64,000 nucleotides of DNA from an uncultured Cyclobacteriaceae bacterium (GTDB lineage: Bacteria > Bacteroidota > Bacteroidia > Cytophagales > Cyclobacteriaceae): positions 434,001 through 498,000 of the forward strand of contig CALSPM010000005.1 in assembly GCA_943788235.1 (NCBI GenBank). The letters run 5' to 3'. The position numbers and the translations under genes were made by a program. The notes beneath the pieces were generated by a model. The model was not told the DNA's origin. It did no database searches and saw only the letters and a program-made list of their open reading frames with translations. Position 1 is the first letter of the stretch. Each line of letters starts with the position of its first letter. Of the stretch, positions 47,495-64,000 are shown in pieces.

Positions 47495-47569
47495 GGGCGC
47501 TTAGCTCAGTTGGTTCAGAGCACCTCGTTTACACCGAGGGGGTCGGGGGTTCGAATCCCTCAGCGCCCA
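47495..47569 (+). tRNA. tRNA-Val (anticodon TAC)
   Basis: The cloverleaf folds fully. The acceptor GGGCGCT (47495-47501) pairs with AGCGCCC (47562-47568) and the D stem is GCTC/GAGC. The anticodon stem CCTCG/CGAGG carries loop TTTACAC with anticodon TAC at 47530-47532. The T stem GGGGG/CCCTC has loop TTCGAAT, and the discriminator base is A at 47569. The 3' CCA is not encoded. It stands alone, and decayed DNA lies directly on its 3' side. Confidence 0.97.
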
Positions 47570-47743
47570 CATCTTCTAATGAGTTTACCATTTTATCTTT
47601 CAATATTGATGATAGTATGTTGCCAATGTATTACATCTTTTCATCCATAACCTTTATATTATTATTTTAATGTTAATATAAAATTAAGAGCCAATTATCT
47701 GAATATAAACTACTTAAATAGTTATTTATCAATGTTTTAGATG

Positions 47744-48181: not shown

Positions 48182-48487
48182 CCTTTTCAAGCCCAGATGA
48201 GTCCTATCAATGATTTTTGGTTTGGCGATCTAAATAGGGATACTTATACGGATATTGTGATGGTTTCTAATGACAAAAATGGTTCTAGTCCTATTGGCTC
48301 ATATAATGCAAATACAGGAGGTATTTTGTTTGGATCTTCCGAGGTAGGTCTTTTTCAGAGTTTCGAGTTTTTCCAGAGTCAGTGTCACCTGAGCGATAAT
48401 AGAATTCTTCTCCTTGATGATGAGCAATGGGTTTTGATTCCCAACGCAGGCAACTTAACCATTGCTCTTTTGAAAATAGGGCAGTAA
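48182..48487 (+). pseudogene. Detached C-terminal end of a VCBS/UnbV lipoprotein
   Basis: The frame begins right after a stop at 48179-48181 and reads PFQAQMSPINDFWFGDLNRD, then TYTDIVMVSN. This aligns with the last propeller blade of the large UnbV proteins at 54522-61667, for example YQFQLFPIYDFLLEDFNTDG followed by YIDLLAAGN. A 96-residue protein from the internal ATG at 48197 is possible, but it would lack a signal peptide and nearly all blades. I therefore read this as the remnant of a fourth paralogue whose 5' part was lost. It ends normally at a TAA. Confidence 0.65.
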
Positions 48488-48520: not shown

Positions 48521-49558
48521 TCAGTTGACTTTGGAACTTTCTCTTCGAATTACTTTGGTTTTAATAATCACCGTTTCCTCGCTGACTTTTGATGTGGCAC
48601 TGATTTTAGAAAAAAGTAGCTGAGCTGCCTTCATACCCATTTCAAAACCGGGTTGATCTACGGTAGAGATTGAGGGCTCATAGAGCATTGAAATGGCCCA
48701 ATTACTAAATCCAATTACTTTCAGTTCTTCAGGAACCCTTAAGTTTTGTTTTTTGGCCACTTTAATTAAACCGGTGGCGAGCATATCAGTAGTAGCAAAG
48801 ACACCATCTAATTGGGGATATTTTTTCAATAGTTTTTCTGAGCAAACCATGCCCAATTGTTCTCCCTCAATTATTTTTTCATTAAAAATAATCAAATCGG
48901 TATTCAAATTAGATTTAGATTCGTTTATTGCTTTTTGGTAGCCTTGTACACGCTGCAAATTAATTACATTTCGAGGGCCTGAGATACATGCAATTTGGGA
49001 AGCACCTGCTTCCAAGAGATGTTTGGTTGCCATATAGCCCGCATGGATGTCATCAATAATTACTTTTGAAACTTTTAGATTTGGAGGAGCGATATCAACA
49101 AAAACCAAAGGGATTTTTCTTTCAATTAATTCATTTACATAATCATCAGAAGTACCGTCACTTTGGTAGGACATAATGATACCATCAGTACCTCCATTTA
49201 GGAGATTTTTAATTTCATTAATTTCTTTATGTAAATCGTAATTAGTAGGGAGAATCAAGCAACGGTAACCATGCTTTTGGGCTTCTCTTTGAACACCTAG
49301 AAGTATCTTTCCAAAAAATTCGTGAACTACTATTTTTGGCAGTAGTATGCAAATAGTGTGGGTTTTTTTCTTTTGTAAGCTGCGTGCTGCATAGTTGGGT
49401 TGATAATTATGCTTTACAGCATATTCTTTAATTTTTTTTTTTGTAGATGATTTAACAACAGAACTATCCGATAACGCACGGGATACGGTAGAAGGATTAA
49501 TTTTTAAGGCCTTTGCAATGTCTGTTATCGTGATCTGGTTATATCTATTTTGTTCCAT
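48521..49558 (-). CDS. LacI family transcriptional regulator
   Basis: A 345-residue regulator. The DNA-binding domain (about 7-60) has ITITDIAKALKINPSTVSRA and the hinge helix NYQPNYAARSLQ. The sugar-binding periplasmic-type domain follows (TICILLPKIVVHEFFGKIL, then GIIMSYQSDG). The ATG at 49558 is preferred over one 27 bases upstream because the shorter protein begins just before the HTH. It is divergent from susC across about 310 bases that hold two matching operators, so it most likely represses susCD (and itself) until a sugar ligand binds. The ligand is unknown. Confidence 0.9.
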   Translation of the reverse strand: MEQNRYNQITITDIAKALKINPSTVSRALSDSSVVKSSTKKKIKEYAVKHNYQPNYAARSLQKKKTHTICILLPKIVVHEFFGKILLGVQREAQKHGYRCLILPTNYDLHKEINEIKNLLNGGTDGIIMSYQSDGTSDDYVNELIERKIPLVFVDIAPPNLKVSKVIIDDIHAGYMATKHLLEAGASQIACISGPRNVINLQRVQGYQKAINESKSNLNTDLIIFNEKIIEGEQLGMVCSEKLLKKYPQLDGVFATTDMLATGLIKVAKKQNLRVPEELKVIGFSNWAISMLYEPSISTVDQPGFEMGMKAAQLLFSKISATSKVSEETVIIKTKVIRRESSKVN

Positions 49559-49710
49559 GTTTAGTGATAGGATCAAATTGAACATCTCATCATATTCCCA
49601 ATTTGCAATTTAAACTATGAAAAATGTACTTTAAGGTTGAACAAGTTACATGAACAAGTTAATAAATCATTAAAAATTTAATATAAAATAATAGTAGTGC
49701 AAAGAAATAA

Positions 49711-49724
49711 TGCAAACGTTTGTA
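49711..49724. promoter_or_regulatory. LacI-type operator, left copy
   Basis: TGCAAACGTTTGTA is a near-perfect palindrome around a central CG, the classical form of LacI/GalR family operators. It lies about 150 bases before the regulator ATG and mirrors the right copy. Confidence 0.8.
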
Positions 49725-49742
49725 TAATAATTATATAAAAAA

Positions 49743-49756
49743 ACAAACGTTTGCAT
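49743..49756. promoter_or_regulatory. LacI-type operator, right copy
   Basis: ACAAACGTTTGCAT is the reverse complement of the left copy over 13 bases. The centres are 31 bases apart, about three helical turns, so two dimers would lie on the same face of the DNA. This favours cooperative binding. Confidence 0.8.
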
Positions 49757-49867: not shown

Positions 49868-52804
49868 ATGAAGAAGAAAATTTTGCTTTTAAGCACTTCC
49901 TTATTTCTGTGTATTGCGTCTGCTTGGGCTCAAAGAACAGTTTCAGGTAAAGTGACTTCGAGTGATGACGAGTCGGCAATTCCAGGGGTCAATGTGGTCC
50001 TTAAAGGAACGAGTTCCGGTACTATCACTGATTTTGACGGTAACTATCGAATAGAGGTACCTGAAGCAGGTGGAACATTAGTTTTCACTTTTATTGGTTT
50101 ACTTTCTCAAGAAACGGTTATCGGTTCCCGGTCAATAATAGACGCGAGTATGGAATCTGATTTGGCAGAACTAGACGAGATTGTCGTGACGGGTTATGGA
50201 ACCCAAGAAAAGAAAGAAGTGACTAGCGCCGTGACCAGTGTTAAGGCCAAAGACTTTAACAAAGGTATGGTGAACGATCCCGTTCAGCTTATTCAGGGTA
50301 AAGTAGGCGGATTGACGGTGGCAAGACCAGGGGGTGATCCCAATGGGAACTACACCTTAAGATTAAGAGGAGTTTCTACTTTTGGTGCCAATGCTTCCCC
50401 ACTTATTGTAATTGACGGAGTGATCGGTGGATCTTTGAATACAGTAGATCCCAATGATATAGCTTCTATGGATGTTTTGAAAGATGGTTCTGCTGCCGCG
50501 ATTTATGGATCGAGAGGATCTGCCGGGGTTATCATTATTACTACCAAAACGGGAGAATCCGGTAAAACTGCCATCAATTATAATGGATCTGTTGCATTCG
50601 AGAGCGTTGCTAACAGCATTGAATTCATGGATGCTGATGAGTACAAAGCCCTTCCTGGAGCTGTAGACTTAGGTGGAAGTACCGATTGGTTGGATGAAGT
50701 TACAGAAACTGGTGTTTCTCAAATTCACAATATATCTATGTCAGGAGGAGCCAAAAGTACAACCTACAGAGCTTCCATTAATGTAAGAGACGTGACCGGT
50801 GTTGGAATGAATTCTGGCTTTAATCAGCTTAATGCTAGATTAAATTTATCTCAAAAGGCGTTAAATGACCGTATGAAAATCAATGTGAATATTTCTGCCA
50901 CATCCAAAGACTCTGAATATGGATTTACAGAATCGTTCCGATACGCCATCGCAGCCAATCCAACTATGCCAGTATATGCTGATGCCTCTGGCGGAGGAAT
51001 CACTGGTGGTGCGGCGACAGGTGGATATGCTGAACGAGATATTTTTGATTTTTACAATCCAGTTTCTATTTCTGATCAAAACATCAATCAGGGTACAGAT
51101 TTGAGACTATTGGGAAGTGCAAAGGTTGACTATGATTTTAGTGATTTGGTAGATGGCCTTAGCGCTGCTGTTTTTTATTCTGAACAGCGAACTACTGATG
51201 AGCGAGCACAGTACTTCAAAAAATCTGCCTATTTCGTAAACGGACGAAACGGAGTAGCCAGTCGTAATTGGGCAGGTACGGAAAATAAACTTTTTGAATC
51301 TACCTTTAACTATAATAAAGCTTTTGGTGGAAATGATTTAACTGTTTTAGCAGGATATTCATACCAAGAATTTTTCAATGAAGGTTTTGGAATGGGAGGG
51401 TCTAACTTTCTGACAGATGCTTTTACATATAACAATATGGGTGCATCTCTTGATTTTCCAAACGGCCTTGGTAATGCTAATAGCTATGCTAATTCCAATA
51501 AGTTGATTGCATTTTTTGGTCGAGTGAACTTAAATATATCAGATAACTATTTTGTATCTGCTAGTGTTCGACAAGAAGGTTCGACAAGGTTTGGAGAAGA
51601 AAACAAATGGGGACTCTTCCCAGCGGTCAGTGCAGGAGCCAACTTGAATAATATTCTTAGTTTGAGTGGTGTAGACCAATTAAAGCTGAGAGCCAGTTTT
51701 GGAATTACAGGTGCACAGCCAGGTGAAAGTTATCTATCTAAAAGACGATATGGACCTAGTGGTAGCTTCTTTTATGGAGGTGCTTTTGTACCAAGTTACG
51801 GACCACAAAGTAATCCTAATCCTGATTTGAAATGGGAAGAAAAAGCAGAAATTGATGTGGGTCTTGATTTCTCCGTGATGAACGGTAAGCTCTCTGGTAG
51901 TTTTGACTGGTATCAGCGGACGACCTCAGATTTACTTTTTTTGATTGACGTACCTGTTCCTCCAAATTTATATAATCAAACTTGGAAAAACGTAGGTGAG
52001 ATGACCAATTCAGGAATAGAAATTACCTTGAATTATCAAGTGGTTGATAATGGCTCTTTTTCTTACAACACAGGTATCAACTTTGCAACCTTTAAAACCA
52101 TTATAGATAAGTTAGAGGTTTCTCCATTGTATCAAGGTGCTATGGGATCTCCAGGGCAAAGTGCCGTAAATTTGGCTCGCGTAGCCGTTGGTGAGGAGTT
52201 AGGTCAGCTTTGGTTGCCTGTTTATAACGGACCTGATGCGACTACTGGTGCACCTACGATGAAAGATTTAAACGGAGATGGCACCTTTTGTGATTGTAAT
52301 GATGATAAGCAGGTAGTAGGAAATGGATTACCTGATTTTACTGTAGGATGGAACAATAGTTTAACCTTTGGTAATTTTGATTTAAATGTATTCTTTCGAG
52401 GAGCTTTCGGACATGATGTACTCAACTCATTCAGAGGATTCTATGAAAATTATAGTCCTACTGTCATCAGTAACTGGAATGTAGTTAAAGGTTCTGATTT
52501 AGACCCAAATTTAACGGATGCTGCAGTTAATGATACACATGTTGAGTCTGCAGATTTCCTAAAATTGGATAATGCAACCTTGGGTTATACTTTGCCGGTT
52601 GGTAGTAACAATGCCGGATTTAGAAGTTTGAGAATCTTCGTAGCTGTTCAAAATGCATTTGTGCTGACGGGTTACACAGGAATTGATCCTGAGGTAAGAT
52701 ATATAGATATTGAAGGGGATAATGCTTTGGCTCCAGGTATTGAAAGAAGAAATACCTATTTCACAACAAGAACTGTTTCGGCAGGGATCAATATTGGTTT
52801 TTAA
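49868..52804 (+). CDS. susC: SusC/RagA-type TonB-dependent outer-membrane receptor
   Basis: A 978-residue receptor. Signal peptide about 1-21 (ILLLSTSLFLCIASAWA), carboxypeptidase-regulatory-like domain about 23-98 (RTVSGKVTSSDDESAIPGVN), and a TonB-box-like stretch LDEIVVTGYGTQ near 105. The plug carries the SusC signature MDVLKDGSAAAIYGSRGSAG near 200. The barrel follows and ends in an aromatic residue (INIGF). With SusD it imports an oligosaccharide or glycopeptide across the outer membrane using TonB energy. The LacI operators upstream indicate sugar-controlled expression. susD follows after 7 bases. Substrate unknown. Confidence 0.95.
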   Translation: MKKKILLLSTSLFLCIASAWAQRTVSGKVTSSDDESAIPGVNVVLKGTSSGTITDFDGNYRIEVPEAGGTLVFTFIGLLSQETVIGSRSIIDASMESDLAELDEIVVTGYGTQEKKEVTSAVTSVKAKDFNKGMVNDPVQLIQGKVGGLTVARPGGDPNGNYTLRLRGVSTFGANASPLIVIDGVIGGSLNTVDPNDIASMDVLKDGSAAAIYGSRGSAGVIIITTKTGESGKTAINYNGSVAFESVANSIEFMDADEYKALPGAVDLGGSTDWLDEVTETGVSQIHNISMSGGAKSTTYRASINVRDVTGVGMNSGFNQLNARLNLSQKALNDRMKINVNISATSKDSEYGFTESFRYAIAANPTMPVYADASGGGITGGAATGGYAERDIFDFYNPVSISDQNINQGTDLRLLGSAKVDYDFSDLVDGLSAAVFYSEQRTTDERAQYFKKSAYFVNGRNGVASRNWAGTENKLFESTFNYNKAFGGNDLTVLAGYSYQEFFNEGFGMGGSNFLTDAFTYNNMGASLDFPNGLGNANSYANSNKLIAFFGRVNLNISDNYFVSASVRQEGSTRFGEENKWGLFPAVSAGANLNNILSLSGVDQLKLRASFGITGAQPGESYLSKRRYGPSGSFFYGGAFVPSYGPQSNPNPDLKWEEKAEIDVGLDFSVMNGKLSGSFDWYQRTTSDLLFLIDVPVPPNLYNQTWKNVGEMTNSGIEITLNYQVVDNGSFSYNTGINFATFKTIIDKLEVSPLYQGAMGSPGQSAVNLARVAVGEELGQLWLPVYNGPDATTGAPTMKDLNGDGTFCDCNDDKQVVGNGLPDFTVGWNNSLTFGNFDLNVFFRGAFGHDVLNSFRGFYENYSPTVISNWNVVKGSDLDPNLTDAAVNDTHVESADFLKLDNATLGYTLPVGSNNAGFRSLRIFVAVQNAFVLTGYTGIDPEVRYIDIEGDNALAPGIERRNTYFTTRTVSAGINIGF

Positions 52805-52811
52805 TTGAAAC

Positions 52812-54443
52812 ATGAATAGAAACATGAAAAATATATTAGATAAAAAGTTTTACGTAATGCTCTTAGGGTTGCTTTTCTTCGCCCCAGCATGTACAGATTT
52901 AGATGAAGAATTATTTAGTGATGTTACGGATGAAAATTTCTTCCAATCGGATGATGAATTTATTTCAGCATTAGGAGGCGCTTATTCCTCATTTTATGGC
53001 ATAGGGAACCACTCAAATTTGTGGTCATCAAATGAAATTTCATCTGATGAAATGGTAATTGCCACAAAAGGAGGGGATTGGTACGATGGAGGAATTTTGC
53101 TCCAGTTACATCAGCACAATTGGACACCAGATAATGGTTTTTTCAATAACACTTGGGGATTCCTATATTCGGGCATCAACACGGCAAACCGACTGATTGC
53201 ACAGTTTGAAAATATTGAATCAGACAATTCAACAGCCTATATCAATGAATTAAGAGCAGTAAGAGCCATATGGTATATGTGGGCAATGGATGCTTTTGGA
53301 AATGTTCCTTTGGTGACGGGATTTTCGGATGAAGTACCTAAAAACGACGCAGATTTTCAAACAGGACGTACAGCAGTGTATACTTTTGTGGAAACTGAAT
53401 TAACTGCTGTTATTGCTGATTTAGATGCTAGCGTTGGTGGAAATGCTTATGCTCGAGTAAATCAAGCTACAGCGTGGGCAGCGCTAGCTAAGTTGTATAT
53501 AAATGCGGAGGTTTATTCAGGAGGAGCAACCAGTGAATGGGCTAAGGCAATTAACGCAGTGGATCAGGTTGAGACTTTTGGATATGCATTAGAAAGTCTT
53601 TATTCGAGCAACTTTAAACAAGAGAATAGTGGTTCATCTGAAAACATATTCGTAGTACCTTATGATAAGGTGTTTGCTCAGGGCTTTAACTGGCCGATGA
53701 TGACGTTACATTATGCAAGTCAAAGTGTATTTGAATTTACTGAACAGCCTTGGAATGGGTATGCTACCGTAGAGGAATTTTATAATTCTTATATCGATAC
53801 GGTAAATAACCCAGGAACCACAGGTGCCGTTTGGAGAGGTCTTGCTACCCCCGATCCGTCGGATCTGACAAAACCTAATGGTCGAGGAACCCTTGATTCA
53901 AGATTAAGTAATTTCTTAGTAGGGCCTCAGCTCCTCCCAGACAACACTCAAGCTCAGGATCCAGCAGCTGACGAGGATGATCCTGATGGTGCCGGGCTTA
54001 ATTTTACCCCTGAAAGCAACGTAATCTATCCGAATGGATGGAGACAAGGCGGAGCCAGAATTGGTAAATATACTTACGAGCAAGGTGGAACTAATAGTAT
54101 GTCCAATGATTTTGTCATATATCGTTGGGGAGACATGAAGTTGATCAGAGCAGAGGCCAATCTCAGATTGGGAAATGATGCACTGGCACTAGCTGAGGTA
54201 AATGAGATTAGAGCGCGCGCTGAAGTGACACCGTTTACTGTACTTACTCTTGATAATTTATTGGCAGAACGAGGTCGTGAAATGTTTGCAGAATTGAGCA
54301 GAAGACAAGATTTGATTCGCTTTGGTAAGTTTGATGATGCATGGTGGGAGAAAGAAGTATCTACTTCAACCTACAATGTGTTCCCCATTCCACAACCACA
54401 ACTAGATGTTAACTCTACATTGGTTCAAAATCCGGGGTACTAA
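52812..54443 (+). CDS. susD: SusD/RagB-type substrate-binding lipoprotein
   Basis: A 543-residue surface lipoprotein with lipobox LFFAPAC (Cys27 from the first ATG; an ATG four codons later is also possible). The N-terminal region (DLDEELFSDVTDENFFQSDD) and TPR-like helices with NTANRLIAQFE and ELRAVRAIWYMWAMDAFGNV are standard for SusD. The C-terminal domain has DMKLIRAEANLRLG and LLAERGREMFAELSRRQDLI. It forms the lid over the SusC barrel and captures the substrate. A strong terminator lies 21 bases after the stop. Confidence 0.95.
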   Translation: MNRNMKNILDKKFYVMLLGLLFFAPACTDLDEELFSDVTDENFFQSDDEFISALGGAYSSFYGIGNHSNLWSSNEISSDEMVIATKGGDWYDGGILLQLHQHNWTPDNGFFNNTWGFLYSGINTANRLIAQFENIESDNSTAYINELRAVRAIWYMWAMDAFGNVPLVTGFSDEVPKNDADFQTGRTAVYTFVETELTAVIADLDASVGGNAYARVNQATAWAALAKLYINAEVYSGGATSEWAKAINAVDQVETFGYALESLYSSNFKQENSGSSENIFVVPYDKVFAQGFNWPMMTLHYASQSVFEFTEQPWNGYATVEEFYNSYIDTVNNPGTTGAVWRGLATPDPSDLTKPNGRGTLDSRLSNFLVGPQLLPDNTQAQDPAADEDDPDGAGLNFTPESNVIYPNGWRQGGARIGKYTYEQGGTNSMSNDFVIYRWGDMKLIRAEANLRLGNDALALAEVNEIRARAEVTPFTVLTLDNLLAERGREMFAELSRRQDLIRFGKFDDAWWEKEVSTSTYNVFPIPQPQLDVNSTLVQNPGY

Positions 54444-54521: not shown

Positions 54522-57500
54522 ATGAGGTTACTTGCTTTCATATTATTGTCTTTGACATTGGCATGTACCCAAACCCAAGAACTGCGTTTTACGCGATTGA
54601 CGGAGAAACAATCGGGCATTGATTTTAACAATAAATTATCTTACACTGAGCAGCTCAATCCTTATACTTACAAGAACTTCTACAATGGTGGGGGAGTAGG
54701 TGTAGGTGACATCAATAACGATGGGCGCCCAGATATCTTCTTTTGTGGCAATCAGGTTTCAAATAAATTGTATCTCAACAAAGGAGAGATGAAGTTTGAA
54801 GACATTACCGAACAGGCGGGCCTTATGAGTCAAAATGTTTGGAGTGCAGGTGTCAGCATGGTAGACATAAATGGAGATGGACTTCTCGATATTTATGTTT
54901 GTAAATCAGGCCCCCCAGGAGGGAACAAGCGGCATAATGAGCTGTTCATCAATAATGGCGATCTAACCTTTAGTGAGCAGTCTGTTCAATTTGGGTTGGA
55001 CAATGAGGGACTTTCCAGTCATGCTGCTTTTTTTGATTACGATCTCGATGGAGATTTAGATTGTTATTTACTCAATAACTCCATCAAGTCGGTGGGTGGG
55101 TATGATATCATTGAGAACCAGCGCAATAGACCTGATTCCCTTGGAGGAAATAAATTATTGCGTAATGATGAGGGTTATTTTAATGATGTTACTAAAGAGG
55201 TAGGTATTTATGCCAGTGACATCGGCTTTGGATTGGGAGTGACTATTGGCGATATCAATCAGGATCAATGGCCAGACATCTATGTGTCAAATGATTTTTT
55301 TGAAAGGGATTATTTGTATATCAATGATCAGAAGGGCGGATTTAATGAAGTAATTGAGGCATATATTCAAGAGATGTCTAAGGGCTCTATGGGAGCCGAT
55401 TTTGCGGATATAAATAACGATGGACAGAGCGAAATATTTGTTACTGAAATGCTACCCGAACACCATCAAAGACAGGTATCAAAGGCTCTATTTGAAAGTT
55501 GGGATAAGCATCAGCTTTTGGTAAAAAATGGCTATGCCCATCAATTTGGTAGAAATGTTTTACAACTAAATAATGGTAATAATACGTTTTCTGAAATCAG
55601 TAGATATGCGGGAGTAGAAGCAACTGATTGGAGTTGGGGTGCGTTGATTTTTGATATGGACAACGACGGATATAAAGATATTTTTGTAGCCAATGGCATT
55701 TACAAGGACCTTTTGGATCTAGATTATGTCAATTTCATGTCTCAACCCGGTCAAATTAAAAATATTATTAAAACGGAGAATGATGCCATCAAGAGCATGA
55801 TTGACTTAATGCCCTCTGAGCCTTTAGCCAATTACGCCTTTCATAATAAAGGAGAAAACACTTTTGAAAATAAGGCAGAAGTGTGGGGACTTACCGATCT
55901 CACCTTTTCAAGTGGTGCGGCTTATGGTGATTTAGATAATGATGGTGATTTAGATTTGGTAGTTAATAATGTAAATATGCCTTCCTGGATTTATCAAAAT
56001 AATACTCAAGAGCTGGACAGCCTTCAGAATCATCTCACAATTAAACTCAAGGGAGTGGGCCAAAATTCACAAGCGATAGGTTCAAAAATCAAAGTATATG
56101 TGGAAGGACAGATTTTTTATCAGGAATTAAATCCCTTTCGGGGGTTTGAATCTACGGTGGATACCAAGGTTTTATTTGGATTAGGGAATCACAAGCCAGA
56201 TTCCCTCGAAATAATTTGGCCAGATGGACGTTCAACCCTTCTTTATGATGTCCCCGTCAACGACAGGCTATCCTTCGATCAGAAAGAAGGGCAAAAGATG
56301 ACTGTGCACAAAGATATAAATGGAACTATTTTCAAAGAGGGGTCTGATTTATTGAGGTTTACGCACAAAGAGCAACCGTATGTTGATTTTGACAAAGATC
56401 GTTTGTTATTTCAGATGAATTCAACTGAGGGTCCGTGTCAATGTAAGGCAGATGTCAATCATGACGGTAGGGATGATCTCTATATAGGAGGGGCTTCTGG
56501 TCAATCAGGTGCTTTATTTATTCAAGATGAAGTGGGCTTTCAAAAAATAAATGAACCTTTTGATCAAGCAATATCTTCAGAAGACCTCTCTTGTACTTTT
56601 TTTGATGCCAATGGAGATGGTCATTTAGATCTATACGTCGCTTCAGGGAGTAGTGAGTTTGATGTGTATGATTTGGGATTATTGGATCATTTGTTTTTTG
56701 GAGATGGTCGAGGAGCTTTTAGGGATAGCCATCAAAAGCTACCAAATAAGGGCTTTGAATCTAGCAGTGTTGTAGTTCCTTTTGATTTTGACCAAGATGG
56801 GGATTTGGATTTATTTGTCGGGGGCCGTCAAAGAGCAGGTTATTACGGAGTGCCTACGAACTCACACCTTTTAGAGAATGATGGTTTGGGTAAGTTTGTC
56901 AATGCGACCCAAATAAGGGCGCCCCTTTTTCTGAAACTGGGAATGATTACCGATGCGATCACTACGGATCTTGACCAAGATGGGATAGAAGAATTAATTG
57001 TGGTGGGACACTGGATGGCACCTAAGGTCTTTAAACTTATTCAAAATCAATTTATCGATGCTACGGATCAATTTCAACTTGGAGGATATGCCGGCTTATA
57101 CAATACAATTTCCAAAGGGGATTTTAATGAAGATGGCTATGTTGATTTGATTTTTGGTAACCAAGGAACCAATTCGAGATATCACGCCTCTACAGATTAT
57201 CCTTTAGGCCTTTTGGTAAATGATTTTGATCAAAATGGTTCTATCGATTTGATTGTTTCCATGTTTGATGAAAAAATTGAATATCCGTTGGTACAGTTAA
57301 AAGAGCTCAGTATGCAATTGCCTTACATCAAGAAAGACTACCTAAAGTTTTCAGATTTTAAAACAGCTACCTTAGAAGATATTTTCGGAGAAAAACTTGA
57401 TAAAGGGGGTTATCATCTCAAGGTAAATGAATTAAAATCTTTCATGTGGATGAATCATCCAAAAGCTGATTATCACATCGCTGAGTTACCTTATCAGTTC

Positions 57501-57806
57501 CAATTATTTCCAATTTATGATTTCCTTTTAGAAGATTTTAATACAGATGGGTATATAGATTTACTCGCAGCAGGTAATTTTTTACGTGCCAAGCCAGAAA
57601 TAGGTAGTAATATGGGTGGATATACTGTACTTGCTGAAGGAAATGGGACAGATGCTTTTAAATTTGTAAAAAATAAAAATTCAGGTATCAGTATTTCGAA
57701 GGAAATCAGAAGTATCGAAAGTTTAATTTTCAAAAATCAACAAACTATTATTTTTGGGGTAAATGATGGGCCAAACAAAATATTTATAAAAAATGAGCGT
57801 AATTAA
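54522..57806 (+). CDS. Large VCBS/FG-GAP propeller lipoprotein with central UnbV (ASPIC) domain, copy 1
   Basis: A 1094-residue lipoprotein (lipobox LTLAC, Cys15). The ATG at 54522 is chosen because a longer frame would begin inside the terminator. Seven calcium-binding FG-GAP-type motifs (DxNxDGxxD, for example GDINNDGRPDIFF and GDLDNDGDLDLVV) occupy about 60-500. The UnbV/ASPIC domain lies at about 510-575 (GVGQNSQAIGSKIKVYVEG). Seven more motifs follow to the end (ADVNHDGRDDLYI to EDFNTDGYIDLLA). This suggests two seven-bladed propellers joined by the UnbV domain. UnbV proteins are widespread in Bacteroidota but their function is unknown. Context with SusCD points to surface glycan or ligand binding. 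It overlaps the next gene by 14 bases. Confidence 0.88.
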   Translation: MRLLAFILLSLTLACTQTQELRFTRLTEKQSGIDFNNKLSYTEQLNPYTYKNFYNGGGVGVGDINNDGRPDIFFCGNQVSNKLYLNKGEMKFEDITEQAGLMSQNVWSAGVSMVDINGDGLLDIYVCKSGPPGGNKRHNELFINNGDLTFSEQSVQFGLDNEGLSSHAAFFDYDLDGDLDCYLLNNSIKSVGGYDIIENQRNRPDSLGGNKLLRNDEGYFNDVTKEVGIYASDIGFGLGVTIGDINQDQWPDIYVSNDFFERDYLYINDQKGGFNEVIEAYIQEMSKGSMGADFADINNDGQSEIFVTEMLPEHHQRQVSKALFESWDKHQLLVKNGYAHQFGRNVLQLNNGNNTFSEISRYAGVEATDWSWGALIFDMDNDGYKDIFVANGIYKDLLDLDYVNFMSQPGQIKNIIKTENDAIKSMIDLMPSEPLANYAFHNKGENTFENKAEVWGLTDLTFSSGAAYGDLDNDGDLDLVVNNVNMPSWIYQNNTQELDSLQNHLTIKLKGVGQNSQAIGSKIKVYVEGQIFYQELNPFRGFESTVDTKVLFGLGNHKPDSLEIIWPDGRSTLLYDVPVNDRLSFDQKEGQKMTVHKDINGTIFKEGSDLLRFTHKEQPYVDFDKDRLLFQMNSTEGPCQCKADVNHDGRDDLYIGGASGQSGALFIQDEVGFQKINEPFDQAISSEDLSCTFFDANGDGHLDLYVASGSSEFDVYDLGLLDHLFFGDGRGAFRDSHQKLPNKGFESSSVVVPFDFDQDGDLDLFVGGRQRAGYYGVPTNSHLLENDGLGKFVNATQIRAPLFLKLGMITDAITTDLDQDGIEELIVVGHWMAPKVFKLIQNQFIDATDQFQLGGYAGLYNTISKGDFNEDGYVDLIFGNQGTNSRYHASTDYPLGLLVNDFDQNGSIDLIVSMFDEKIEYPLVQLKELSMQLPYIKKDYLKFSDFKTATLEDIFGEKLDKGGYHLKVNELKSFMWMNHPKADYHIAELPYQFQLFPIYDFLLEDFNTDGYIDLLAAGNFLRAKPEIGSNMGGYTVLAEGNGTDAFKFVKNKNSGISISKEIRSIESLIFKNQQTIIFGVNDGPNKIFIKNERN

Positions 57807-58362
57807 TTATTTAACGATAGTCGTATGTGTGCTTTTAATAGGTTGTCAGTCAGATAATGATTTGGTAGCGTTAGCTAAGCGTGAACACGCCAGTGGAGTC
57901 ATACTAGATTCACTTTTTCTAGGGTTGAAGTTTGGCATGGAAAAGCAAGAATTTTTTGATCATTGTCGGAAGATCAATCGTGAAGGTCTGGTTACCCATG
58001 GCAATGAAAATATGTCGGTAATGTATCTTTTTGAAGATATGGATGATCAGAAAATTGCTTTTAACTTTTATCCTGAATTTAAAAATAATAAAACGGACAA
58101 GTACAAAGCGACATTTAGTTATTATGCTTGGGCACCATGGAATAAAGATCTCCAATCGGATGATCTCCTCAAAATATTACCTGATATTTTGGAAGAGTGG
58201 TATGGAGGTAATGCATTTATTGAGGTGCGAGGGGCCAAAGGCTTGCATTATTATAAAATAGATGGAAATCGTCAAATCGATCTGTCCATTAGGGATGACC
58301 GGTCGGTAGTGGTATATTTCACAGATCTGCGTAAATATGAACTAGCCTTTGAGCAGTTATGA
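57793..58362 (+). CDS. Hypothetical lipoprotein between two UnbV proteins
   Basis: A 189-residue protein with a lipoprotein signal (VVCVLLIGC, Cys18). The mature part is mixed alpha/beta with many aromatic residues (FSYYAWAPWNKDLQ near 105, HYYKIDGNRQIDLSIRDD near 155). I do not recognise the family. It overlaps the upstream UnbV gene by 14 bases and the downstream one by 4 (ATGA), so it is cotranslated with both and may form part of their complex. Confidence 0.85.
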   Translation: MSVINYLTIVVCVLLIGCQSDNDLVALAKREHASGVILDSLFLGLKFGMEKQEFFDHCRKINREGLVTHGNENMSVMYLFEDMDDQKIAFNFYPEFKNNKTDKYKATFSYYAWAPWNKDLQSDDLLKILPDILEEWYGGNAFIEVRGAKGLHYYKIDGNRQIDLSIRDDRSVVVYFTDLRKYELAFEQL

Positions 58363-61300
58363 GGGTGGATAAAGAGATCATCATATTGATGATGCTTATT
58401 TTTTTTGGGTGTAGTAATGAAAAAGACACCCCTCTTTTTAGGACTATCTCATCATCGGAGTCTGGCATTTATTTTTCTAATGATTTAGTTTTTGATCAGG
58501 AGTTTAATATTTTTAAATATCGTAATTTCTATAATGGGGGAGGTGTGGCCATTGCTGATTTCAATAACGACAGCTTGAGTGATATCTATTTAATATCAAA
58601 TATGTCGAGCAATCGACTCTATCAAAACAATGGAAATTTAAATTTCACAGACATTACCAAAACTGCTGGAGTCGCCGGCACACGAGCTTGGAGTACAGGG
58701 GTAAGTGTCGTAGACATTGATGGGGATGGATGGCTTGATATCTATGTATGCAATTCGGGTGATATTAAAGGGGACAACAAGCAAAATGAACTGTTTATTA
58801 ATAACAGAGACGGAACTTTTTCCGAAAATGCAGCCGGCTTTGGCTTAGATGATAAAGGGTTTTCAACGCATGCAGCTTTTTTTGATTATGATCAAGATGG
58901 GGATGTCGACATGTATCTACTCAATAATTCTTACCAGGCCATCGGGAGTTTCAATTTGATGCGCAACGAACGACCAAATCGAGATCAGGTGGGTGGAGAT
59001 AAATTATATAGAAATGAGGGAAATCAATTCACAGATGTCAGCGAAGAGGCCAATATCTATGGGAGTCTTATCGGCTTTGGATTAGGGGTTACTGTAGGTG
59101 ACGTAGATCGAGATGGCTGGTTAGATATTTATGTTTCCAATGATTTTTTTGAGCGGGATTATCTTTATATCAATAAGCGAAACGGAACATTCAAAGAAGT
59201 ACTTGAGGATAGGATTAAGAGCACGAGTGCGGCATCAATGGGAGCAGATTTAGCAGACTTAAACAATGATGGTTATCCAGAAGTATTTGTGACGGATATG
59301 CTTCCAGACAATAACGAACGTATCAAAACAGTAACTACTTTCGACAGTTGGGATCGATTTCAATATTCATTACAAAATGGTTACGGCCATCAGTTTACCA
59401 GGAATACATTGCAATTAAATAGAGGAGATGGATCTTTCAGTGAAATTGGAAGATACGCAGGGGTGGAAGCTTCAGATTGGAGTTGGGGTGCACTTATTTT
59501 TGATTTTCAAAATGATGGATTCAAAGATATCTTTATTGCCAATGGGATTTATCAAGATTTGACCAATCAAGATTTTTTGAGATACATTACTGAAGAAAAG
59601 GTTTCAAAGAAAATAACCTCGAGTGGCAAAGTGGACTATAAAATGCTCATTGATTATATTCCAAGTGTACCGATTTCCAATCATGCCTATCTTAATGATA
59701 AGAATTTAACTTTTGAAAATCAATCCTCTCAATTGGGTTTGGCCGCACCTAGTTTTTCAAGTGGCTCAGCTTATGGAGATTTAGACAATGACGGAGATTT
59801 AGATCTAGTTGTCAACAATACCAATATGCCTTTCTTTTTGTACGAGAATCAATCAAATCTGATATATCCTGACCATCATTACTTGCGGTTTAACTTACAA
59901 GGGGAAGGAAAAAACACACAAGCTTTGGGAACTAATATTACAGTTTACGAGGGAAAAAATAAATATTATTTGGAACATCTTCCTACACGTGGTTTTGAGT
60001 CTACGGTTGACCATCGACCTTTATTTGGTTTAGGTAATGTGATCCAAGTAGATTCTATTAGGATTAATTGGCCTTTGGGCAAGACCACTCTACTGGGAAG
60101 TACTGAGGTAGATCAAGACCTTTGGATATCAGCATCTTCGGCAGTATCCAAGCTAGAAAAAACCACAAAATCAACGCCTGATTTTGTACAAAATCCTAAA
60201 GTATTAGCTGACTATAAGCATACTGAAAACACTTTTGTAGATTTTGATCGTGATCGGTTAACGTTTCAAATGATTTCTACTCAAGGTCCTTGTTTGTGTA
60301 CTGCAGATATTAACAATGATGGGCTGGATGATGTCTATATTGGGGGAGCGAAAGATCAAACAGGATATTTAGCCTTACAAAATCTTTCAGGAACATTTGA
60401 TCGTATGGCTCTGGATACTTTTGCTAAAGATAAGGGTTCAGAAGATGTTGATTGTGCTTTTTTCGATGCTAATGGAGATGGTGCTATGGATCTTTACGTG
60501 GTCAGTGGAGGTAGTGACTTTCAGTTGGGGGCACCACAGTTAGGAGATCGACTGTATTTTTCGGATCATGATTTTAATTTTACCAAAGCAAAGCAAATAT
60601 TACCTGTAAATAAGTTCGAAAGCACCTCTGTAGTGATTCCAGCTGATTATGACGAGGATGGAGATATAGATTTGTTTGTTGGAGGTCGTTTGCAATCTGA
60701 GGCCTACGGATTCCCGCGCAATGGTTATATTCTAAATAACGATGGTGCGGGCAATTATACCAATGTATCCAATGACATAGCACCTGACTTGAAAGAAATA
60801 GGCATGATCACAGATGCAAAATGGGCAGATATTGACAATGATAAAGATCTTGATTTGATTGTGGTCGGAGAATGGATGCCTATTGCTTTTTTTATCAACG
60901 ATCAGGGTAGATACAACAGGAGAGATTTGATGCCCCAATCCAATGGATGGTGGAATGTCTTGGAGATAGAAGATCTCAATGGAGATGGAAGGGTAGATTT
61001 AATATTGGGTAATCATGGATTGAATTCACGCTTCAAAGCATCAGAAGAAAGGCCCCTGCACATGTTGGTAAAAGACTTTGATCGCAATGGTACCATTGAA
61101 CAAATTATATGTCAATTTGAGGGAGATAAATTATTTCCCTTGTCACTTCGACACGACCTATCCATGCAAATCCCTAGTATTAAGAAGAAATATTTAAAAT
61201 ACGATAGTTATAAGGATCAGGAAATCACAGATATATTTGGTTCCAAAGGATTAAATGGAGCGTTAGATTTAACTGCGAGCCATCTGGCTTCCACCATATT

Positions 61301-61667
61301 TTTGAATAAAGGATTGATGGAATTTGAAAAAATGGATCTACCTGATGAAGTACAATATTCATGTGTTTATACAGTTGAGGTGGCTGATTTTAATTTTGAT
61401 GGTTATTCAGATATTTTATTTGGAGGGAATTTATACGATGTTAAACCAGAAATGGGTCAGTATGACGCAAGCTATGGGACGTTATTGATTGGAGACGGTT
61501 CGGGACAATTTGTGATTAAAGGACAAGTGGCATCTGGAATCATACTGGATGGAAGCGTTAGGAATTTGTCATTTATTGATACGAAGGAAGGAAAAATACT
61601 ATTGGTAGCCAACAATAACGCTCAAATACAGGTCTACCAACCCCAAGTTCAAATCAAAACGGATTGA
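58359..61667 (+). CDS. Large VCBS/FG-GAP propeller lipoprotein with central UnbV (ASPIC) domain, copy 2
   Basis: A 1102-residue lipoprotein (lipobox IFFGC, Cys18), clearly paralogous to copy 1 throughout. Seven FG-GAP-type motifs come first (ADFNNDSLSDIYL to GDLDNDGDLDLVV), then the UnbV domain at about 514-580 (GEGKNTQALGTNITVYEG), then seven more (ADINNDGLDDVYI to ADFNFDGYSDILF). Conserved blocks such as GRYAGVEASDWSWGALIFDF recur in all three copies. It is probably surface exposed with the SusCD pair, but no enzymatic motif is visible. Its TGA overlaps the TTG start of copy 3. Confidence 0.88.
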   Translation: MRVDKEIIILMMLIFFGCSNEKDTPLFRTISSSESGIYFSNDLVFDQEFNIFKYRNFYNGGGVAIADFNNDSLSDIYLISNMSSNRLYQNNGNLNFTDITKTAGVAGTRAWSTGVSVVDIDGDGWLDIYVCNSGDIKGDNKQNELFINNRDGTFSENAAGFGLDDKGFSTHAAFFDYDQDGDVDMYLLNNSYQAIGSFNLMRNERPNRDQVGGDKLYRNEGNQFTDVSEEANIYGSLIGFGLGVTVGDVDRDGWLDIYVSNDFFERDYLYINKRNGTFKEVLEDRIKSTSAASMGADLADLNNDGYPEVFVTDMLPDNNERIKTVTTFDSWDRFQYSLQNGYGHQFTRNTLQLNRGDGSFSEIGRYAGVEASDWSWGALIFDFQNDGFKDIFIANGIYQDLTNQDFLRYITEEKVSKKITSSGKVDYKMLIDYIPSVPISNHAYLNDKNLTFENQSSQLGLAAPSFSSGSAYGDLDNDGDLDLVVNNTNMPFFLYENQSNLIYPDHHYLRFNLQGEGKNTQALGTNITVYEGKNKYYLEHLPTRGFESTVDHRPLFGLGNVIQVDSIRINWPLGKTTLLGSTEVDQDLWISASSAVSKLEKTTKSTPDFVQNPKVLADYKHTENTFVDFDRDRLTFQMISTQGPCLCTADINNDGLDDVYIGGAKDQTGYLALQNLSGTFDRMALDTFAKDKGSEDVDCAFFDANGDGAMDLYVVSGGSDFQLGAPQLGDRLYFSDHDFNFTKAKQILPVNKFESTSVVIPADYDEDGDIDLFVGGRLQSEAYGFPRNGYILNNDGAGNYTNVSNDIAPDLKEIGMITDAKWADIDNDKDLDLIVVGEWMPIAFFINDQGRYNRRDLMPQSNGWWNVLEIEDLNGDGRVDLILGNHGLNSRFKASEERPLHMLVKDFDRNGTIEQIICQFEGDKLFPLSLRHDLSMQIPSIKKKYLKYDSYKDQEITDIFGSKGLNGALDLTASHLASTIFLNKGLMEFEKMDLPDEVQYSCVYTVEVADFNFDGYSDILFGGNLYDVKPEMGQYDASYGTLLIGDGSGQFVIKGQVASGIILDGSVRNLSFIDTKEGKILLVANNNAQIQVYQPQVQIKTD

Positions 61668-64000
61668 AACAGATCACATCTATAGGATGTTCAATACTTG
61701 TACTTCTTGCTTCATGCATGAAGAAAAAAGAGGGAGATTATAAGTTTTTAGAAGTGCCATCGGCACAGTCCCATGTTTCGTTTGTCAATAAACTTGAGCA
61801 TCAAGAAGACTTTAATATCATTGATTATCTCTACTATTATAATGGGGGTGGAGTTTCTATCGGAGACATCAACAATGATGGCTTATTTGACATTTATTTC
61901 AGTTCTAATGAGGGATCTAATAAGTTATACTTAAACAAAGGGTCTTTTTCATTTGAAGACATCACTGAAAGTGCAGGAGTCGCTAGTCTGGGTAAATGGA
62001 AGACCGGAATCAACATGGCGGATATTAATGGGGATAATCTGCTCGACCTTTACGTATGTCGAGTCAGTGGATATGAGGGGCTCGAGGGGCATAATGAGTT
62101 GTACCTAAACAATGGAGATTTGACTTTTACTGAAAGTTCTGTGAAGTATGGATTAGATTTTAGTGGGTTTTCTACCCAATCTTCTTTTTTTGATATGGAT
62201 AAAGATGGAGATTTAGATCTTTATTTATTGAATCATGCGGTCCATACACAAAAGAGTCATGGGCGTGCAGATCTGAGGTTTGATGTGGATCAGCTGTCTG
62301 GAGACCGAATATTTGAAAATATTGGAGGTTATTTTGAAGATATCACGAGTACCACCGGTATTTATTCTTCACAAATAGGCTATGGATTGGGTATTGGACT
62401 TTCAGACTTTAATCAAGATGGATTTACAGATCTTTATATTTCAAATGATTTTAGCGAAAATGATTACCTCTATATAAATAATGGAGATAAAACATTTTCG
62501 GAGCGACTTACTGATATGGCACATCATAGCAGTCGCTTTTCTATGGGGAATGACATTGCCGATTATAACAATGATGGTCGGGTAGATATCATTACATTGG
62601 ATATGCTTCCGGAGGATGAGGTAGTTCGGAAACGTTCTGTCGGGGAAGATTCTTACGAGATATTTCGTATGAAATTACAATTTGGTTATATGAATCAATA
62701 CAGTCGAAATACTTTGATGCTCAATAGAGGGGAAAAATTTTCTGATGTAGCCATGCTTGCAGGCATTCACGCCACTGATTGGAGTTGGGGTCCATTATTT
62801 GCAGATTTCAATAATGATGGATGGAAAGATATTTTCATATCAAACGGTATTGCCAGAAGGCCCAATGACTTAGATTATATCGATTTTATTTCAGGTGATA
62901 AGGCACGAAATAATCCAAATTTATCTGATGCTGCTATCGTTTCAGAGATGCCCCTTGGAAAGGTAAAAAATTATTTTTTTTCAAACAATCAAGATTTAAC
63001 CTTCGAAAATGTAACGGAAATTTGGTCAAATGCGGGCGCTCAAATCACCAATGGAGCGGCTTATGCTGATTTAGATAATGATGGAGATCTTGATTTGGTA
63101 TTGAATAATTTGAATGAGGAAGCCGATATTTTAGAAAACCTAATCCTTCGTGAAGGCGTAGATCATGAGGGCTCGAATTTCCTCAAACTTCGATTTTTTG
63201 GTGCAGAGGGAGCTCCTGTTTTGGGTACGCGGGTGACTGCCTTTGTGGGTGAGCAGATTCAAATGTATGAATTGTTTTCTGTTCGGGGGTTTCAGTCAAG
63301 CACAACCAACGAAATCATCATGGGTTTAGGAGCTTCCAATGAGATCGACTCTTTACTGATTGAATGGCCCAATGGGTCTGTAGAGTGGCAAGGGGCCATC
63401 CAAGCAAATCAACTTTTGAAGTTATGGATGCCAGAACAACAGCCTGTAAAAAAACAGTCAAAGCCTCCTTTAAAGGAAACGATATTTGAAAATGTGACGG
63501 CTTCATTGGGGATAGATTATAAACATCACGAAAACAGATTTGTTGAATTCAATAGAGAGCCATTAATCCCACATATGAACAGTCAAGAAGGCCCTGCGAT
63601 TTGTATTGGAGATGTCAATGGAGATGGACAAGACGACTTTTTTGTGGGTGGAGCAAGAGGTCAGTCTGCTCATTTGTATCTGCAGCTCGCGTCGGGATTT
63701 AAACTGGTAAGAACATTTGAGGAAGACAAAATATTTGAGGATGTAGATGCTGCCTTTTTTGATGTAGAAAATGATGGTGACCTCGATCTTTTGGTAGTTA
63801 CTGGGGGAAATGAGTTTGATAAAAACTCTCCCAATGAATTGTCAAGAATTTATTTAAATGATGGTAAAGGTTCTTTTGAGAAGGCGAAGGATATGTTGCC
63901 AAATTTGTATGAGACGGGCTCTGTTGTGGCCGTTCATGATGTAAATAATGATGGATTTTTCGATATTTTTATAGGTAGAGTAGCGGTTCCATGGCATTAT
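61664..64000 (+). CDS. Large VCBS/FG-GAP propeller lipoprotein with central UnbV domain, copy 3 (partial)
   Basis: An open frame of 779 codons runs to the right edge. The start is TTG at 61664, overlapping the TGA of copy 2 (TTGA). It gives a lipoprotein signal (SILVLLASC, Cys18) that an ATG at codon 19 would lose. Seven FG-GAP-type motifs precede the UnbV domain (about 513-585, GAEGAPVLGTRVTAFVGE) and three of the second set are visible (GDVNGDGQDDFFV, FDVENDGDLDLLV, HDVNNDGFFDIFI). It is more divergent than copies 1 and 2, which keep closer sequence to each other. The remaining blades lie outside the window. Confidence 0.85.
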   Translation, partial: MKQITSIGCSILVLLASCMKKKEGDYKFLEVPSAQSHVSFVNKLEHQEDFNIIDYLYYYNGGGVSIGDINNDGLFDIYFSSNEGSNKLYLNKGSFSFEDITESAGVASLGKWKTGINMADINGDNLLDLYVCRVSGYEGLEGHNELYLNNGDLTFTESSVKYGLDFSGFSTQSSFFDMDKDGDLDLYLLNHAVHTQKSHGRADLRFDVDQLSGDRIFENIGGYFEDITSTTGIYSSQIGYGLGIGLSDFNQDGFTDLYISNDFSENDYLYINNGDKTFSERLTDMAHHSSRFSMGNDIADYNNDGRVDIITLDMLPEDEVVRKRSVGEDSYEIFRMKLQFGYMNQYSRNTLMLNRGEKFSDVAMLAGIHATDWSWGPLFADFNNDGWKDIFISNGIARRPNDLDYIDFISGDKARNNPNLSDAAIVSEMPLGKVKNYFFSNNQDLTFENVTEIWSNAGAQITNGAAYADLDNDGDLDLVLNNLNEEADILENLILREGVDHEGSNFLKLRFFGAEGAPVLGTRVTAFVGEQIQMYELFSVRGFQSSTTNEIIMGLGASNEIDSLLIEWPNGSVEWQGAIQANQLLKLWMPEQQPVKKQSKPPLKETIFENVTASLGIDYKHHENRFVEFNREPLIPHMNSQEGPAICIGDVNGDGQDDFFVGGARGQSAHLYLQLASGFKLVRTFEEDKIFEDVDAAFFDVENDGDLDLLVVTGGNEFDKNSPNELSRIYLNDGKGSFEKAKDMLPNLYETGSVVAVHDVNNDGFFDIFIGRVAVPWHY

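Follow-up and report, generated by a model that had tools for sequence, protein, structure and literature searches.

A recurrent SusC-SusD cassette with three UnbV giant lipoproteins in Bacteroidota and its possible role in alpha-glucan capture in a Cyclobacteriaceae genome

The window analysed here is a stretch of 64,000 nucleotides (G000:C5:434001-498000 in our labelling) from the 3.25 Mb genome, G000, of an uncultured Cyclobacteriaceae bacterium; coordinates above 64000 are window-equivalent positions past its edge. Its 3' part contains a gene cluster of the starch utilisation system (Sus) type, in which SusC and SusD are followed by three very large proteins with an UnbV domain (U1, U2 and U3) and, between U1 and U2, by a small orphan lipoprotein, S, in the order SusC-SusD-U1-S-U2-U3 (Table 1). 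This cassette is conserved and found in scattered Bacteroidota. The genes susC and susD lie 7 bp apart, as the adjacent pair of a SusCD-type polysaccharide utilisation locus (PUL) does, and the following genes overlap consecutively, by 14 bp (U1/S), 4 bp (S/U2) and 4 bp (U2/U3). The nearest solved chain of the window SusD is SusD 3ck7 (PDB, E 2e-27), and its score of 152.6 bits on the NCBIfam starch-SusD model is far under the cut-off of 725. A first-pass annotation of the window had proposed two complete UnbV proteins of 1094 and 1102 residues, a third one running off the edge, and SusC, SusD and LacI as neighbours; all of these are borne out, the third protein being completed beyond the window and the neighbours by their Pfam and TIGR04056 matches, and the S gene was the one that it had passed over.

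Table 1. Features of the cassette and of its surroundings in G000
Feature	Position	Strand	Remarks
LacI-family regulator, divergent from susC	48521-49585	-	Pfam Peripla_BP_1 7.8e-30, LacI HTH 4.1e-9
Palindromic LacI-type operator candidate TGCAAACGTTTGTA	49711-49724		lacI-susC gap
Second palindromic operator candidate AACAAACGTTTGCA	49742-49755		lacI-susC gap
SusC/RagA TonB-dependent transporter	49868-52804	+	TIGR04056, 685 bits (cut-off 368)
SusD/RagB lipoprotein	52812-54443	+	Pfam; PDB
U1, repeats-UnbV-repeats lipoprotein, 1094 aa	54522-57806	+	
UnbV/ASPIC domain of U1	56073-56270	+	PF07593
S, orphan lipoprotein, 189 aa	57793-58362	+	between U1 and U2
U2, UnbV double-repeat lipoprotein, 1102 aa	58359-61667	+	
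UnbV/ASPIC domain of U2	59922-60122	+	PF07593
U3, third UnbV protein, 1088 aa complete	61664-64000 in the window, ends 64930	+	
UnbV/ASPIC domain of U3	63221-63418	+	PF07593
GH13 alpha-amylase, 914 aa	65009-67753		outside the window, 3' of U3
Vanadium-haloperoxidase homologue, PAP2 family, 439 aa, lipoprotein-like start	67961-69280		outside the window, after GH13
Xylose isomerase, xylulokinase-like FGGY kinase, sodium symporter	69313-73852 (L009:8314-12853)		opposite strand, after the peroxidase

The recurrence of the cassette was followed in two sets of loci, whose genes were labelled by comparison (phmmer) with reference proteins taken from the window and from relatives of it, not by curated annotation. 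The named set comprises the best 80 of 583 loci and is biased to close relatives, while the random set comes from 198 evenly drawn Bacteroidota genomes, 12 of which, G000 included, contain S, and consists of the 11 genomes other than G000. The sets overlap to some extent, the random locus L206 being the same place as the named L079, and L061 and L099 being judged to be contigs of G006 and G016. An S gene was found by phmmer in 51 of the 80 named loci, and 40 of these also have SusC and SusD; the order SusC-SusD-U1-S-U2-U3 was seen in Algoriphagus, Belliella, Maribacter, Winogradskyella, Marinoscillum, Saprospiraceae and others, and all three U genes are present in 39 of 51 parsed U-S cassettes. 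In the random set, a U gene stands beside S in 11/11, and SusC and SusD are both seen within about 20 kb in 8/11, or in 9/11 with wider flanks (extended upstream by about 12 kb); at a stricter threshold, the S label is kept in 10 of the 11 and both SusC and SusD are retained in 7. Three related random cassettes (L223, L225 and L226, from G080, G169 and G180) have an extra UnbV-type set upstream, which encodes an UnbV protein of about 1120-1140 residues, an unlabelled one of about 1160-1185 residues and an UnbV-like one of about 600 residues.

The three U proteins keep their places in the cassette. The best match in another locus was found at the same position for 117 of the 122 full-length U proteins, a count helped by near-identical loci in the set, such as L097 and L103, and on a FastTree tree the position labels require three changes (the minimum is two), against a mean of about 58 for shuffled labels. 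Therefore, U1, U2 and U3 are regarded as ancient distinct paralogues, and the same two results rule out that the array arose by recent tandem duplication. In L128 (G034:C78:121000-140900), a locus of a relative, the cassette is doubled to U-S-U-S-U and the S genes score equally; this particular doubling is probably a recent tandem duplication. The parts of the cassette belong to known kinds, and what appears to be new is the fixed set of three UnbV paralogues with the orphan lipoprotein and the frequent peroxidase neighbour described below; no paper joining UnbV/FG-GAP proteins, SusD and haloperoxidase was found among the matches listed in the open-access literature.

In each U protein, repeats of the FG-GAP_3/FG-GAP type flank a single UnbV_ASPIC domain, all above the Pfam cut-offs, with UnbV_ASPIC scores of 64.2, 52.3 and 54.3 bits for U1, U2 and U3 (cut-off 23.4). 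The strict calcium loops DxDxDG/DxNxDG number 12, 10 and 9, respectively, and if degenerate loops are included, a count by eye on aligned columns gives 7+7 in each protein, as the first-pass annotation had it for U1 and U2. The arrangement of seven motifs on each side holds in that sense, but one motif of the second half is part of an insertion. Thus, in the half-versus-half profile alignment of U2, built on 64 sequences, the best of six solutions (E 2.2e-27; the next one, shifted by one repeat, 1.2e-24) pairs loops 1-6 of the first half with the second-half loops at 650, 703, 763, 824, 872 and 1010, leaving the loop at 906 inside an insertion, and the C-terminal segment looks to us like a blade that lacks such a loop. 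Hence, 7+7 blades are plausible, but 7+7 equivalent calcium loops are not. The best solved match of the U proteins is CRTAC1 (PDB 9etn, profile E 8.6e-23), and integrin alpha chains match as well. FG-GAP-type repeats followed by an UnbV/ASPIC domain are shared with CRTAC1 and other UnbV/ASPIC proteins, whereas the second repeat half after UnbV, the lipoprotein signal, the tandem position-specific paralogues and the setting in a SusCD operon are peculiar to the U proteins. Five more UnbV_ASPIC genes, with frames of 629-896 residues, were noticed in G000 (C2:28524, C3:235961, C3:278622, C5:781586 and C14:906); for two of them a SusC gene is close by (L161, L163), and neighbours of like size accompany the final two (L164, L165).

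Among 55 aligned S sequences, Cys18 is the sole invariant column. The search of these 55 members against Pfam at E <= 1 gave no family matched by more than two of them, and against PDB there was a single match, at E 0.29, with none better. S may resemble folds of the BamE/SmpA type.

Beyond the edge of the window, 78 bp after U3, a gene for an alpha-amylase of glycoside hydrolase (GH) family 13 begins, which supplies, outside the window, the enzyme of a SusCD-type utilisation locus. The first-pass annotation had stated that no glycoside hydrolase was visible and had called the locus enzyme-free; the former is correct inside the window, but GH13 starts 1.0 kb past the edge and is followed by the vanadium-haloperoxidase homologue, so that an enzyme-free locus is ruled out in this genome. 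Moreover, the genes beyond 64000 come close to forming a PUL of a known kind, which the same annotation had set against a new system. The GH13 protein has the Pfam match and the GH13 motif strings, the catalytic roles of which we assume from the family, and a C-terminal sorting domain of the type IX secretion system (T9SS), as given by Pfam. Its nearest solved chains are alpha-amylases, 8xx9 (E 1.3e-153) and 8dge (E 3e-109); the catalytic core is shared with 8dge/8dl2, which we take to be BoGH13A-Sus, whereas the sorting domain is its own.

The peroxidase homologue aligns over residues 34-435 with the vanadium haloperoxidase of Zobellia, 4cit (E 8.7e-151), and keeps the K-x6-RP, SGH and SR...H stretches of the vanadate motif, whose residues presumably have the roles known for this family. 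The aligned region and the active-site stretches are thus shared with the Z. galactanivorans enzyme (4cit, 4usz), whereas the link to SusCD and UnbV genes is the homologue's own, its enzymatic activity being putative. The chain 4usz, of the same sequence as 4cit, has been named an iodoperoxidase of Zobellia (PMC5064120). Homologues were found in 34 of 59 related genomes (E 1e-20, G000 included). Among those of at least 50% identity, an UnbV gene lies within 10 kb in 20/33, within 5 kb in 17 and within 1.5 kb in 11, with 30 of the 33 rows of this class, and 64 of all 67 rows, inspected, and with nine of the UnbV positions taken from among the matches listed. An UnbV gene within 1.5 kb was found for 16 of 21 homologues at 39-49% identity and for 2 of 13 below 39%, the divergent homologues serving as the contrast group. 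In the random set, a peroxidase is near 4/11 loci, or 5/11 with the wider flanks, which show a further peroxidase beside the random locus of G104. The neighbourhood link of peroxidase and UnbV genes is clear, if unexplained. Some homologues with no UnbV gene nearby, in L169 and L173, are accompanied by genes for GH13, GH37 trehalase and a symporter; a GH37 trehalase, GH13 and an SSS symporter were found near the peroxidase in L154, L169 and L173, and glycerol kinase with a glycerol-3-phosphate oxidoreductase in L169 and L185, the latter also with an MIP channel. These four neighbourhoods have a trehalose or glucosylglycerol theme.

The comparison within the genus shows what the cassette alternates with. 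In the sister genomes G001, G005 and G008, where no S turned up, the same site next to xylA is occupied by SusE/F-GH13-SusC'-SusD'-peroxidase (the SusE/F gene of G008 being only partly on the contig). In G007, the cassette is followed by a complete SusE/F-GH13-SusCD-peroxidase module, the SusE/F protein of which matches PF16411 at 1.2e-29, and in G000, G003 and G006 it is followed just by GH13 and the peroxidase. The search of 10 genomes with PF16411 (SusE/F) gave matches in three, G001, G004 and G005, and none in G000, G003 and G006 as assembled. The gene of xylose isomerase converges on that of the peroxidase in all seven genus genomes examined. The identity between G000 and G007 is 75% for GH13, 90% for the peroxidase and 95% for XylA. 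We read these data as two alternative alpha-glucan modules occupying one site in the genus. In L122, the locus of G003, both SusC and SusD are broken into two open reading frames (ORFs), which is ascribed to a frameshift or an assembly error; U2, GH13 and the peroxidase of G003 are 97-99% identical to those of G000.

The gap of 283 bp between lacI and susC holds two palindromic operator candidates, and their exact core, CAAACGTTTG, has two copies in the whole window, both inside this gap; LacI, with these candidate sites in the shared gap, is the linked regulator expected of a SusCD utilisation locus. A loose form of the operator pattern occurs in 14 of 15 lacI-susC gaps from the 19 loci examined, a raw count in which two gaps are duplicates. 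The neighbours of lacI, which were identified in part of the loci, are beta-phosphoglucomutase and GH65 in L087, L104, L105 and L220 (the last being the random locus of G191) and beta-phosphoglucomutase and GH31 in L049, L100, L139 and L154, with an MFS sugar carrier also beside lacI in L049, L100 and L139; L100 and L154 are without S.

The explanation that we prefer, and to which about an even probability is assigned, is that of a Sus-type surface import system in which the U proteins, together with S, have the task of capturing or presenting the ligand, most likely an alpha-glucan in this genome. Judging from family knowledge and gene order, SusC and SusD would form the outer-membrane importer, U1, U2, U3 and S would be located on the cell surface and capture the ligand or present it to SusCD, acting as binding or scaffold parts that take the job of SusE and SusF in the starch system, and LacI would repress the operon at the two candidate palindromes until a sugar signal appears. 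The amylase, as its adjacency and the genus comparison suggest, would cut the alpha-glucan outside the cell in G000, the ligand being of the starch, glycogen or maltodextrin type. Directly after the cassette a GH13 with a T9SS sorting domain is encoded, for which reason the ligand is considered here as most likely an alpha-glucan; a job shared with SusCD is favoured because the order and the position-specific paralogues are maintained across distant families. The idea of the first-pass annotation that these are surface binding proteins of a SusCD locus remains the best one. Gene order, domains, homology, the conservation of positions and the alternation with a SusE/F-type locus in the genus were observed directly, and surface location, ligand binding, the secretion and the substrate of the amylase and an action of LacI at the palindromes are predicted. 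The regulator of Sus is SusR, whereas the present locus has LacI, and it further differs in the three UnbV giants with the orphan lipoprotein, the lack of a SusE/SusF match in G000 and the vanadium-haloperoxidase homologue. The SusC/SusD pair, the GH13 alpha-amylase and lipoproteins are shared with Sus and the marine alpha-1,4-glucan PULs, as are, in some relatives of the locus, nearby GH65, GH31 and GH97. The alpha-1,4-glucan PUL of North Sea Flavobacteriia comprises, according to the available text of the report, GH13, often GH65 and GH31, and sometimes GH97 (PMC6298971).

Several observations weigh against this explanation. Of the 37 named loci that carry S and span 19 kb or more, only seven have a recognised alpha-glucosidic hydrolase (17 having the peroxidase and 11 a LacI), and so does one of the 11 random loci, wider upstream flanks included, this count covering phmmer-labelled neighbours only; the sole random locus with an alpha-glucosidic set is that of G191 (GH65, beta-phosphoglucomutase and LacI). 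Other hydrolases are near some cassettes, such as three copies of GH127 in L068 and GH20 in L054, and in L089 GH32 with an MFS carrier adjoins lacI. The Pfam tally for 179 neighbours in the named set (proteins of at least 330 residues within 7 kb, the best 25 families per scan) is alpha-amylase 7, GH127 at least 5, GH65 at least 4, LacI 12, SSF 6 and MFS_1 at least 6. Therefore, the cassette in general has no fixed tie to alpha-glucan, and the alpha-glucan reading is limited to the genome of the window; as a universal cassette ligand alpha-glucan is unsupported, given one random locus of 11. Even in the genus, G000 and G007 have different GH13 alleles, so that the genes now found side by side may have come together recently, and the change between the cassette and the SusE/F module may have gone either way, since G006, which diverges most among the seven genus genomes compared, is in the same state as G000. 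Alpha-glucan PULs without SusE/F are described for Maribacter isolates in the available part of PMC6298971; thus, the absence of SusE/F is no proof of its replacement by the U proteins.

A doubtful though sizeable alternative takes the cassette for a general surface capture module with a ligand other than an alpha-glucan polymer, be it a different glycan, a glycoconjugate or a small osmolyte of the trehalose or glycerol glucoside kind; the GH13 of this genus would then be incidental to it. The 10 of 11 random loci with no alpha-glucosidic hydrolase recognised among labelled neighbours, the GH127, GH20 and GH32 near some cassettes, the trehalase and SSS symporter near the peroxidases of relatives (L154, L169, L173), the glycerol kinase and glycerol-3-phosphate oxidoreductase (L169, L185) with the MIP channel (L185), and the trehalose-like PULs of North Sea Flavobacteriia mentioned in the available text of PMC6298971 all agree with it, while the alternation with a SusE/F-GH13-SusCD locus at the site in this genus does not, nor do the eight alpha-glucosidic catabolic sets adjacent to lacI, though a small alpha-glucoside would suit these too. 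It is unlikely that the true partner of the cassette is the vanadium haloperoxidase, in a joint surface chemistry of halogens or peroxide, such as iodine capture or detoxification of the algal oxidative burst. Such a partnership would fit the strong alignment with 4cit and the retained active-site stretches, the UnbV genes near many homologues (20/33 and 16/21, against 2/13 in the divergent class) and the presence of the peroxidase in 17 of the 37 long named loci with S and in 5 of the 11 from the random set; it would also fit the iodine uptake of Arenibacter C-21, which has at least five such homologues and required glucose, oxygen and calcium, a peroxide-generating system being able to stand in for glucose (PMC5064120). 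For one genome, the same paper gives the numbers of SusD proteins and of iodoperoxidase homologues and draws no link between them. The requirements of strain C-21 make the halogen role worth testing, yet more than half of the counted cassettes are without peroxidase, G001, G005 and G008 have the peroxidase in a SusE/F-GH13-SusCD locus with no cassette, GH13 and a 207-bp gap stand between U3 and the peroxidase in G000, and the activity of the homologue is only predicted from its sequence.

A role as adhesins or in a matrix, with an importer operon shared by chance, is quite unlikely for the UnbV proteins. Their very large size, the matches with CRTAC1 and integrin alpha chains and the relation of the repeat family to integrin-type propellers (given in the available text of PMC8023676) could suggest it, but the recurrence of SusC-SusD-U1-S-U2-U3 with position-specific paralogues across distant families speaks against chance. 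A catalytic UnbV domain, which the first-pass annotation had offered as an option, is highly improbable: UnbV is without an assigned function and some loci show no recognised hydrolase, but in the libraries searched the sole hits of this domain are UnbV_ASPIC and the equivalent part of CRTAC1, the best solved match of the whole proteins is likewise CRTAC1, and in G000 a GH13 is close by. Hardly probable, too, is a distinct calcium-dependent surface machine, SusC-SusD-U1-S-U2-U3-peroxidase, in which the propellers would dock on SusCD and capture would be coupled to haloperoxidase chemistry; if true, it would explain why the uptake of iodine by marine Bacteroidota depends on calcium and peroxide.

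To return to the Sus-type import system, the fixed U1, U2 and U3 with S in one SusCD cassette suggest a stand-in for SusE/F. Bacteroidota carry many UnbV giants with no role assigned, and the cassette offers a defined set for expression and testing, while the recurrent peroxidase neighbourhood gives a genetic handle on the purpose of the vanadium-haloperoxidase homologues.

Some minor features were observed around the locus. A tRNA-Val gene (anticodon tac) lies at 47495-47570 on the plus strand, with about 1 kb between it and the lacI 3' end, and one may guess that it marks an insertion site. A run of N of about 5 kb is present within L010 (G000:C5:512000-531000). An ORF of 96 residues behind lacI (48197-48487, plus strand), with a propeller-like start FGDLNRDTYTDIVMVSND, gave no match in the Pfam scan and is perhaps a remnant of an FG-GAP protein.

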